The notes beneath the pieces are model-generated. The model saw only the letters and a program-made list of their open reading frames with translations, searched no databases and had not been told where the DNA came from. A DNA stretch of 29,777 nucleotides, taken from positions 1 through 29,777 of the IMG/VR virus record IMGVR_UViG_3300047171_000046, one strand, 5' to 3'. The position numbers and the translations under genes were made by a program. This document shows, piece after piece, positions 26,893 to 29,777 of the stretch (position 1 is its first letter; each line of letters opens with the position of its first letter). This DNA comes from a virus.

Positions 26893-27804
26893 ATGGACGT
26901 AGCTGCCGTCAATTACCTGAGCATACCGGACCTTCTGAAGGCAACGCCTGCGGAAGAGGGCGGGGAGCGCTTTGTCTATATCGAGCCATCGAAAGAGGCG
27001 CGCGATATCCAGGGCGAAGTCGTGCTCGCGAAAGCGCTGGCAGATGGCGCGCCGTATTACAAGGAATTCGGCAACCTCGATATTCAACATCGCAGCATTC
27101 TCGGCCTGGCCGCGAATGATCCAGAATATCACCTGCACGAGATCGGTCACCCGGTCGAAGTCAAGGTCGAGAAGGGCCGCACCTTTGTTAAGGGCGCCAT
27201 TTACCAGGGCGACGGCCGCCAAGCGCAGTGCGCCAACGATTACTGGGATTCGGTCACCAACACACGTCCGCCGCAACGCTGGTATCCCAGTGTTGGCGGC
27301 AAGGTTCTGGATGCGGACCCGATCATTGACGCGGACGGCCGTAAAACCCGCATCGTCAAAAAGATACGTTGGTCAAACATCGGCTTCAGCCGCACGCCGG
27401 TAAACACCGCCGTTCCGCAAGTCTCGCGTGTTCCGTTCGGTGCGCTGGCGAAGTGCCTGGATGCCGATGGTTCATTCGATCTTATGAAGGCGATCGATGC
27501 CGGCAACGCCGTTGCTGGTAGCGCAGGTCTCACCGCCGGTTACGGAACGGATGTCGCCGATCTATCCGGCGGTGGCGCGCTGCGCACCCAATCGCTCGAT
27601 CATCATCTGCAATCCTACTGGGATTTTCGCGATCGCCTTGCGGACGATCTCCGCACGAACCGTGTGCCGCAATCGTCCAGCCGGATGGTTGAACACGCCG
27701 CCGCTCACTACGGCCTGGGCAAAGCCCGTGCTGCCGAATGGGTCGAGCGCTTCATGACCGATCTCAAAGCCGGTCTCCACCAACACAAGGGAAAGACACA
27801 ATGA
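26893..27804 (+). CDS. prohead serine protease (capsid maturation protease)
   Basis: A 303-residue protein. Its order is that of prohead/XkdF-like proteases: a strand with RDIQGEVV (37-44), a catalytic-type His in FGNLDIQHRS (H66), VEKGRTFVKGAIY, and RWYPSVGGKV with the probable nucleophile S133 in S-V-G-G. The N-terminus has LLKAT (14-18). Residues 213-236 (LTAGYGTD ... LSGGGALR ... QSLD) are almost the same as residues 29-52 of the capsid protein two genes downstream. Such proteases cleave scaffold and capsid N-termini inside the prohead. There is no Shine-Dalgarno sequence; the terminator hairpin lies just upstream. It is coupled (ATGA) to the scaffold gene. Confidence 0.78.
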   Translation: MDVAAVNYLSIPDLLKATPAEEGGERFVYIEPSKEARDIQGEVVLAKALADGAPYYKEFGNLDIQHRSILGLAANDPEYHLHEIGHPVEVKVEKGRTFVKGAIYQGDGRQAQCANDYWDSVTNTRPPQRWYPSVGGKVLDADPIIDADGRKTRIVKKIRWSNIGFSRTPVNTAVPQVSRVPFGALAKCLDADGSFDLMKAIDAGNAVAGSAGLTAGYGTDVADLSGGGALRTQSLDHHLQSYWDFRDRLADDLRTNRVPQSSSRMVEHAAAHYGLGKARAAEWVERFMTDLKAGLHQHKGKTQ

Positions 27805-28424
27805 CTGCTGTAGCAGCCTCGGGCGGCTTTGCTGCTCTGCTCGCCGAACTTGGTGAGTCTGCAACGCTGGCGAAGGCCGCCGGCGCCGATCTCGATACTC
27901 CGCCCAAGGGCAAAAATGGCAAGCCCATGATCAAGGGCGATGACGGCGAGTGGGGGGAAGACAACTCCGACGATGAAGGTGGCGATGACATGGGCAAAGC
28001 CCTGTCGGTCACACTCGAAGACGGCACGCGTCTCGAAGCAGTCGACGCCACAGATATCCTCAAGGGCCACGACGGACTCCTGAAGGCGCTGCAAGCGGAC
28101 GTGCTGCCGCAGTTTATGGCCGTCATCAAAGACCAAGGCACGGTCATCAAGAAGCAGGGCGACTTGCTGAAGGCTCTGCAAGTTGAAGTCGGCACGCTGC
28201 GCAATACGGGTCGCGGTCGCTCTTCCGCCCTCACCGTGCACGACCAGCCGCGCCGCGCCGCCGCGCCAGCCACCGGGCCGAAGAAAGAAGAAGTGCTTGC
28301 GAAAGCAGACTCGATCTTCGCGGCCGGAAAACTGGACGCGGTCACCTACTCCGAAATCGCCGGTCGCATGGAGCGTGGCGAGCGCCTCACCGCGCAGCAG
28401 GCGGCGGCGCTCGGCCTCGGCTGA
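27801..28424 (+). CDS. probable capsid scaffold protein
   Basis: A 207-residue protein between protease and capsid genes, the standard scaffold position. ATG 27801 overlaps the protease stop and has AGGGAAAG upstream. An acidic stretch (GDDGEWGEDNSDDEGGDDMG) is followed by a coiled-coil-like segment (LLKALQADVLPQFMAVIKDQ, then GDLLKALQVEVGTL) with two LLKAL units 25 residues apart, and a basic C-terminal part ending ERLTAQQAAALGLG. Also seen are TLAKAAG (22-28) and VLAKADS. Low-complexity, helical and acidic to basic layout is typical of scaffolds. If LxKA marks processing sites, this protein would be cut repeatedly. Confidence 0.72.
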   Translation: MTAVAASGGFAALLAELGESATLAKAAGADLDTPPKGKNGKPMIKGDDGEWGEDNSDDEGGDDMGKALSVTLEDGTRLEAVDATDILKGHDGLLKALQADVLPQFMAVIKDQGTVIKKQGDLLKALQVEVGTLRNTGRGRSSALTVHDQPRRAAAPATGPKKEEVLAKADSIFAAGKLDAVTYSEIAGRMERGERLTAQQAAALGLG

Positions 28425-28450
28425 CCGTCTCTCGATGATCGCAAGAAATC

Positions 28451-28465
28451 GCTCTCTTCGAGAGC
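28451..28465 (+). other. perfect hairpin between scaffold and capsid genes
   Basis: GCTCTC-ttc-GAGAGC without a T-run. It may stabilise or process the mRNA ahead of the highly expressed capsid gene. AGGGG about 9 bases before ATG 28485 is the ribosome binding site. Confidence 0.5.
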
Positions 28466-28484
28466 AAAACTAGGGGTTTAGAAA

Positions 28485-29684
28485 ATGGATATCGGTTCGA
28501 TGTTCTTGCAGGGTGGCAACGGCCCTGGCGTAATGGGCAGCGACGGCCTGGAAATGCTCAATAAGGCCCTGACGGCTGGATACGGTACGGACGAGGCTCA
28601 GCTTTCCGGTGGTGGTGCGCTCCGCGTACAGTCTCTCGATCGCCAGATGCAGGCGACGATCCAGACCAACGCGAATTTCAAGCTCTTTAATATGCTACCG
28701 AAGTCCAAAGCGACGGCGACGGTTGACGAGTGGACCGAACAGAGTGACGTCGGCGGATTCCCGGGCGGGTCGTTCAACGGAGAAACCGCGCCGATTGCGG
28801 GTTTCCAGGGCACTTACAACCGCCGCACGGGATCGGTGAAGTATCTGCAGTCCATGCGTCAGGTGTCCATGGTCGTTGCCCTGCAGGGATCCATCCAGTC
28901 AGCGCAGGCCGTGGAAGAGTTGGCCGGTGCGAAGCAGCTTCTGACGGACGCTGAAATCGGATGCTTCGAGGGCAACAGCGCAGTTGTCCCGGAACAGTTT
29001 GACGGCATCTACAGCCAGATGGCGCAGGGTGTGGCCATGGGTCTTGTCGACGGTGGCAACATCATCGACGCGCGCGGCGGCCCGCTGAACAGCATCGATT
29101 ATGTGACGGAAGCTGCCGCCACGATCGCTGGTGAAGGCAACTACGGCACGCCTACGGACATCTTCCTGAGCCAGTTCACCCAGGCGGACCTGGACAACAA
29201 CCTTCAGCCCGCGTTCCGCGTTCCGCTGTCCGGCCAGCCGGAAAGCACCGCTCTGGGCACGCCGGTTACCGCGATCAACACCTCTTACGGCAAGATCGCG
29301 AACCGTCCGGACGTCTTCATCCGCGACCAGGTGAAAATGACACCCTTCGAACTGCGCTACCCCGCAGTGGCCGCCCTCAACCTTTTCGCTCCTGTGAGCG
29401 TGACGGTGCAGACCGCGGCGAACGCGTCCAGCCTGTTCACGGCTCCGCAGGCCGGAAACTACTACTGGTATGTGACTGGCGTCACCAAGCTCGGCGAGTC
29501 CTTCGGGACAATGAGCGCGCAGACTGCGGTGGCTGCCGGCCAGGGTGCGGTGCTCACCATCACCCAGAGCCAGGGCGGAACCGAGGGTGGATACGTGATC
29601 TATCGCTCGCGTCAGAACGGCACCAACGCGCCGTCCGACATGCGCGAGATGGCACGCATCGCGAAAACTCAGAACAGTTGTTAG
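28485..29684 (+). CDS. major capsid protein (frame possibly interrupted at 3' end)
   Basis: The shell-forming protein, 399 residues in the visible frame. The segment ALTAGYGTD ... LSGGGALRVQSLDRQMQ (28-56), then FKLFNMLPKSKATATVDEWT, TYNRRTGSVKYLQSMRQVSM, LLTDAEIGCFEGNSAVVPEQ (the Tyr/Phe-EGN-S signature), FDGIYSQM and TDIFLSQFTQADLDNNLQP match a phage major capsid family I recall. Near the C-terminus an inserted Ig-like region (YYWYVTGVTKLGESF ... YVIYRSRQNG) runs to MREMARIAKTQNSC and stops. Relatives, as I remember them, continue several tens of residues beyond this point, so the real gene may be frame-shifted or interrupted by an intron just before 29684. Confidence 0.85.
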   Translation: MDIGSMFLQGGNGPGVMGSDGLEMLNKALTAGYGTDEAQLSGGGALRVQSLDRQMQATIQTNANFKLFNMLPKSKATATVDEWTEQSDVGGFPGGSFNGETAPIAGFQGTYNRRTGSVKYLQSMRQVSMVVALQGSIQSAQAVEELAGAKQLLTDAEIGCFEGNSAVVPEQFDGIYSQMAQGVAMGLVDGGNIIDARGGPLNSIDYVTEAAATIAGEGNYGTPTDIFLSQFTQADLDNNLQPAFRVPLSGQPESTALGTPVTAINTSYGKIANRPDVFIRDQVKMTPFELRYPAVAALNLFAPVSVTVQTAANASSLFTAPQAGNYYWYVTGVTKLGESFGTMSAQTAVAAGQGAVLTITQSQGGTEGGYVIYRSRQNGTNAPSDMREMARIAKTQNSC

Positions 29685-29777
29685 CGGCGGTGAGAATCCG
29701 CGCATAAACGGCGAAGGCGGATGGTCGCCCTTCTGCGTTGATGGTGCCGTCGTGCTCGTGGCGGTCAAGGACGCGTG
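29670..29777 (+). other. possible 5' part of a group I intron at window edge
   Basis: After the capsid frame ends, the sequence can form a P2-like hairpin GCGG (29687-29690) with CCGC (29698-29701). This is followed by TAAACGGCGAA, in which ACGGC (29708-29712) pairs with GCCGT (29746-29750) around a GGCG/CGCC hairpin (29716-29719, 29726-29729). The order resembles P3-J3/4-P4-P5 of group I introns. The rest lies outside the window, so this is tentative. Confidence 0.3.

Follow-up and report, generated by a model that had tools for sequence, protein, structure and literature searches.

The window analysed here is a whole stretch of viral DNA of 29,777 bases, a contig whose right end carries genes for a protease, a scaffold-like protein and a major capsid protein in the same order as in SPO1:

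26893-27804, forward strand: precursor of the prohead (head maturation) protease, 303 residues, matching phrog_1028 (4.5e-24) and, by its AlphaFold2 fold, T4 gp21.
27801-28424, forward strand: presumed scaffold, 207 residues, with K↓A sites, lying between protease and capsid like SPO1 gp3.3.
28485-29684, forward strand: major capsid protein (major head protein), 399 residues, matching phrog_752 (8.4e-61), SPO1 gp6.1 and the Staphylococcus phage 812-type capsid in the PDB.

Protease and capsid both belong to known families. Both the gene order and the homology of the proteins agree with the head module of SPO1-like phages (Herelleviridae; gp3.2 protease, gp3.3 scaffold and gp6.1 capsid), and the window represents a divergent form of this module, of the Gram-negative type. 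Compared to SPO1, the window protease is longer, with a C-terminal domain of three helices and a private insert of 12 residues. The closest cultured relatives are the group of Bordetella phage PHB04, Pseudomonas phage Touem01, Aeromonas phage ST4 and Morganella phage Mecenats66, which share 38-50% identity in the protease and 41-47% in the capsid and have the same gene order and the capsid-arm copy described below. A Pfam search returned nothing useful, and the protease had no match in the PDB by sequence. In alignment with all relatives, the 3' end of the capsid gene is short by about 95 codons, and the early stop of this ORF is probably a contig-end artefact or a chimera. The forward frames of the last ~100 bases (29675-29777) have no homology to the missing part of the capsid. 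K[SA] dipeptides exceed those of shuffled sequences in the scaffolds of most relatives, while the excess in this scaffold is not significant. Such an excess would fit a protease specificity for K↓[SA], which is a prediction.

The protease and capsid have one short segment in common:

27529-27600, forward strand: capsid-arm copy in the protease, residues 213-236 (LTAGYGTDVADLSGGGALRTQSLD), found by a capsid-only HMM at E = 3.2e-14 and predicted disordered.
28569-28640, forward strand: capsid arm segment, residues 29-52 (LTAGYGTDEAQLSGGGALRVQSLD), placed at the start of the mature capsid protein by a PDB chain start and alignment.

An earlier note on this DNA had described this segment, and an exact recount confirmed its figures: 21 of the 24 residues are identical, encoded by 8 identical and 13 synonymously different codons, with 52 of the 72 nucleotides matching. 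In a search of the complete record, this capsid segment matched two places only, with E = 3.9e-10 for the protease copy, and the local alignment score of the two segments was far above shuffled sequences (z = 16.8). The match is therefore not due to chance. Since the segment is shared by capsid and protease, the profiles of the two families cross-match: phrog_752 hits the protease with positions 24-52, and phrog_1028 hits the capsid with positions 174-206. The clearest asymmetry between the copies is the residue after R (capsid residue 48, protease residue 232), which is V or I in capsids and K, M, R or T in proteases.

On the capsid side, the segment directly follows a predicted maturation bond:

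28485-28565, forward strand: N-terminal propeptide of the capsid protein, residues 1-27, up to the predicted maturation bond K27↓A28 (start of PDB chains 9row, 9rox and 9roz).

Two PDB chains, one of 463 residues (5lii) and one of 439 residues (9row, 9rox and 9roz), align as one protein. We take these entries to be of phage 812 or a near relative, going by the sequence match and the identity of 5lii. The 439-residue chain begins at SFQTGYGITPDTQ, directly after the Lys of a homologous K↓S bond. This Lys aligns with K27 of the window, which is invariant in 56 of 56 capsids. Judging from its start point, the deposited 812-type chain appears to reflect processing. Because this chain starts just after the Lys aligned with K27, the segment likely forms the first ~25 residues of the mature protein and not a part of the removed propeptide. 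The arm segment is disordered in the AlphaFold2 model of the capsid monomer.

AlphaFold2 models, made with sequences from the window and related loci only, and alignments of homologues gave the following features of the protease:

26935-27417, forward strand: catalytic domain, residues 15-175, pLDDT mostly above 90.
27088-27090 and 27289-27291, forward strand: H66 and S133 in the catalytic domain, both invariant in 59 homologues.
26938-26943, forward strand: K16↓A17, predicted N-terminal processing site (K in 59/59, A in 58/59).
27451-27456, forward strand: K187↓C188, predicted self-cleavage site 1 (K in 73/73, followed by S in 55 or C in 18).
27487-27492, forward strand: K199↓A200, predicted self-cleavage site 2 (K in 59/59 of a close set and 69/71 of a wide set, followed by A, S or G).
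27496-27531, forward strand: 12-residue insert (202-213) leading from K199-A-I to TAGYGTD, a gap in 70-72 of 73 aligned proteases.
27616-27798, forward strand: C-terminal three-helix domain, residues 242-302, pLDDT mostly above 90 (helices 242-254, 262-273 and 277-302).

The top Foldseek matches of the protease model were chains of 5jbl (T4 gp21; E = 2e-4), followed by herpesvirus proteases. With this modelled catalytic fold and the conserved His and Ser, the protein appears to be a protease of the T4 gp21 and herpesvirus type. T4 gp21 cleaves itself at the N-terminus (PMC9958956), and by analogy K16↓A17 is a possible activation cut of the same kind. The K187 and K199 bonds stand between the catalytic domain and the copy. 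K199 aligns with the K of SK↓ALEAGY in relatives. In the window, the motif is not adjacent to its Lys because the 12-residue insert, which is nearly private to this phage, intervenes. Residues 201-234, including the copy, are unstructured in the model (pLDDT under 50).

We then determined how widely the copy is distributed, using 159 unique protease-capsid pairs from phage records and IMG/VR and a search HMM built from capsid arms only. Scans were made with split alignments, because family-wide ones were too diverse. The protease tail contained a copy in 143 of the pairs at E<1 and in 137 at E<0.01. A lack of conservation in relatives was what the earlier note expected to count against its proposals, and the opposite was found. 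The copy occurs in SPO1 (about residues 170-197 of gp3.2; z = 16.1), other Herelleviridae, Gram-negative phages and Thermus phage Cumys, where TAGDPHALDxKxGLxGVPAIRxESLE is common to protease and capsid. Another 22 pairs did not reach E<0.01, and 13 of them matched their own capsid arm when compared to shuffles (p<=0.01), some through lineage-private sequence, as in L232 (GVSTAGIANEGTTGGAAIRKQDLE versus GVSTAGIAIDGTTGGAALRVQSLD). In Lalka27b (L016) and L239, the stretch matching the capsid was not convincingly the arm motif. There was no clear copy in the proteases of Thermus phage Lalka27b, DAC16, MA9V-3 and L104. Since Lalka27b and a few others have no detectable copy, it is dispensable in some lineages. 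Protease and scaffold are joined in one ORF of 532 residues in Chryseobacterium phage MA9V-3 (L021, 3285-4883), and Lalka27b has an annotated CRISPR array (L016, 6087-6456) near the capsid gene, with recombinase, methylase and TnpB-family genes nearby.

Within genomes, the segment is confined to these two genes. A genome-wide search found exactly two matches, protease and capsid, in 16 of 18 records, and in Lalka27b the capsid copy only. No copies elsewhere, such as in portal or scaffold proteins, were found in the 18 records with this query, which missed both copies in Cumys.

The high peptide identity in the window could be explained by recent duplication, gene conversion or an assembly artefact. 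Codon usage speaks against such recent events: over 136 pairs, 1247 of 2609 identical residues had identical codons, compared to 1195 expected if synonymous codons were independent. Because identical residues use codons as if independently chosen, the peptides seem to have been held while the DNA became saturated, which points to selection on the peptide. The presence of the copy in sequenced isolates such as SPO1, LP65 and Bobb speaks against them as well. We consequently rejected recent duplication or conversion and assembly error as scarcely credible, in agreement with the earlier note, which had argued against a recent duplication or an assembly artefact. The two segments likely share an ancient origin by duplication, and conversion older than synonymous saturation is possible.

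The earlier note had also proposed looking for co-variation of the two segments across protease-capsid pairs, and this was found. Mean identity of the copy was 0.60 to the capsid arm of its own phage and 0.44 to the arms of other phages (permutation maximum 0.47), while only 21 of 136 copies matched their own arm better than any other. A partial Mantel test of copy against arm, controlled for catalytic domain and capsid body, gave r = 0.48 in 136 pairs and r = 0.51 in 74 non-redundant pairs (p<=0.0005 for both). Protease copies thus change together with the capsid arm of their own phage to an extent beyond phylogeny. Among 77 non-redundant phages, the copy followed the capsid body when the catalytic domain was controlled (r = 0.52) but not its own catalytic domain when the capsid body was controlled (r = 0.01), whereas the C-terminal domain of the protease did track the catalytic domain (0.42). 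We compared the copy to equal-sized control windows, 27 catalytic and 8 C-terminal. All of these still tracked the catalytic domain, no control window tracked the capsid arm above 0.154, and none of them behaved like the copy. Differences were seen between groups: the copy followed the capsid body rather than the catalytic domain in the Gram-negative-type group (0.47 versus 0.07), while it tracked both equally in the Herelleviridae-like group (0.36 each).

At the G/S position of AGY, mapped on the catalytic tree, there were 15 changes in proteases and 13 in capsids, of which 9 were identical on the same branch, compared to about 0.7 expected by chance. In phages PHB04, ST4, Dolphis and fHe-Yen8-01, the capsid arm is of a second type (ASNYQTD...ALGVQSLD and similar), with a parallel shift in the protease copies (KALEASYATD...ALGMQSLD and similar). 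Part of the co-variation signal comes from exchange of capsid types among phages. The C-terminal domain and the scaffold sit between copy and capsid but lack this tracking, which disfavours the idea that recombination carried the 3' end of the protease gene along with the capsid. The copy thus seems to evolve as if it were part of the shell. Distance correlations identify no binding site, and a local co-variation scan of the capsid gave scattered weak windows, several of them in the C-terminal part that is missing from the window.

We considered several functions for the copy. The main rival to our preferred interpretation is that the protease recognises its substrates through the segment, an extended element just after the scissile bond that it would read both in the capsid and in its own tail. 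The motif is immediately preceded by a K↓[AS] bond in 56 of 56 capsids and in almost every protease, cleavage of the 812-type capsid appears to occur at that bond, and related proteases such as SPN3US gp245 remove their C-terminal propeptide themselves (PMC10052503). Conversely, the scaffold K↓[SA] sites, which are presumed substrates, occur without the motif, and the motif is retained in the window, L028, Mecenats66, L224 and L232, which lack the adjacent K or have it 9-15 residues away. With the capsid body controlled, the copy shows no tracking of the catalytic domain in either the full or the Gram-negative set. Substrate recognition on its own is thus rather unlikely, though it could act together with docking. 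The earlier suggestion of a shared cleavage site stands with regard to the K↓[AS] bond and the invariant K27, but not with regard to the motif itself, which is downstream of the bond and is retained without an adjacent K in the cases above.

A second alternative is an autoinhibitory pseudosubstrate, with the copy blocking the protease until assembly, in the way that the N-terminal region of T4 gp21 keeps this enzyme blocked before it is activated (PMC9958956). In the model, however, residues 201-234 have no defined position, and the full set shows no tracking of the catalytic domain by the copy. The invariant K16↓A17 is a better candidate for a block of the T4 type. We therefore found no support for the substrate mimic of the earlier note and consider it very unlikely.

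The third of its proposals, a common docking site, is the best-supported class, although the capsid shell fits as the partner and the scaffold does not. If capsid and protease were brought together by docking to a third protein of the head, such as the scaffold, the portal or a minor protein, this would account for one linear motif in two otherwise unrelated proteins, as expected from a common partner, and for the predicted disorder of both segments. The same co-variation signal would arise from any third partner whose evolution follows that of the capsid. Neither segment, however, tracks the scaffold beyond general phylogeny (r = 0.03 and 0.01; 77 non-redundant phages), and we regard this version of docking as distinctly unlikely.

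We favour docking on the shell itself and give even chances to the interpretation that a mimic of the capsid arm docks the protease precursor on the procapsid, followed by self-release. The mimic, between the gp21-like catalytic domain and the C-terminal helical domain, would be the docking element. During assembly, it would bind the places for the capsid arm on the inner face of the procapsid, and this binding would hold the precursor within the procapsid and pair it with its own shell. The active enzyme would then cut after Lys before small residues, at K27↓A28 in the capsid and K↓[SA] in the scaffold, and self-cuts at K187↓C and K199↓A would free the catalytic domain from the shell-bound tail. 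Capsid binding, protease retention and self-release are what we infer here. They build on the observed copy and its place by the maturation bond, its conservation and restriction to two genes, its co-evolution with the capsid at the amino-acid level, and the conserved K↓[SAC] sites.

T4 gp21 and herpesvirus assemblin have the same catalytic fold and are likewise internal proteases that digest the scaffold and trim the capsid. We found no capsid-arm copy in T4 gp21 when compared to gp23 or gp24 (p = 0.14 for gp21/gp23). In HK97, the best match (p = 0.02) was at the N-terminus of the protease and not in the tail, with no copy in the corresponding place. The capsid-arm copy is therefore not general to prohead proteases. 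A possible parallel is the capsid-targeting sequence (CTS) of T4, a short linear element for prohead entry that is linked to a protease cut (PMC5694885, PMC9958956). The CTS is an N-terminal tag of ~10 residues on internal proteins, is not a copy of a capsid protein and has not been reported in the protease, whereas the copy described here is internal in the protease and restricted to protease and capsid in the genomes searched. In the phiKZ and SPN3US proteases (gp175 and gp245), the C-terminal propeptide that the protease itself removes is 64 residues long in gp245 and cleavage occurs after Glu; the passages covered here report no capsid-like segment (PMC10052503).

The literature covered, which did not include subscription papers on A511, phage K and SPO1, contained no description of the shared segment that we could find. 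The cross-match of phrog_752 and phrog_1028 could mislead annotation. Except for HK97 and T4, there is little understanding of how prohead proteases enter procapsids and what keeps them inactive until assembly. An element that is present in both enzyme and shell, evolves like the shell and lies beside a predicted release cut is a concrete and testable answer for a large group of phages, including the model phage SPO1. Our tentative proposal, to which we give slightly less than even chances, is that a co-evolving arm copy brings the maturation protease to its own shell and makes it specific for that shell, and that the enzyme gets free through a cut next to the copy. Peptides derived from the capsid arm could help load cargo into such capsids. 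If the proposal is true, capsid mimicry would be a mechanism of protease targeting across SPO1-like phages.
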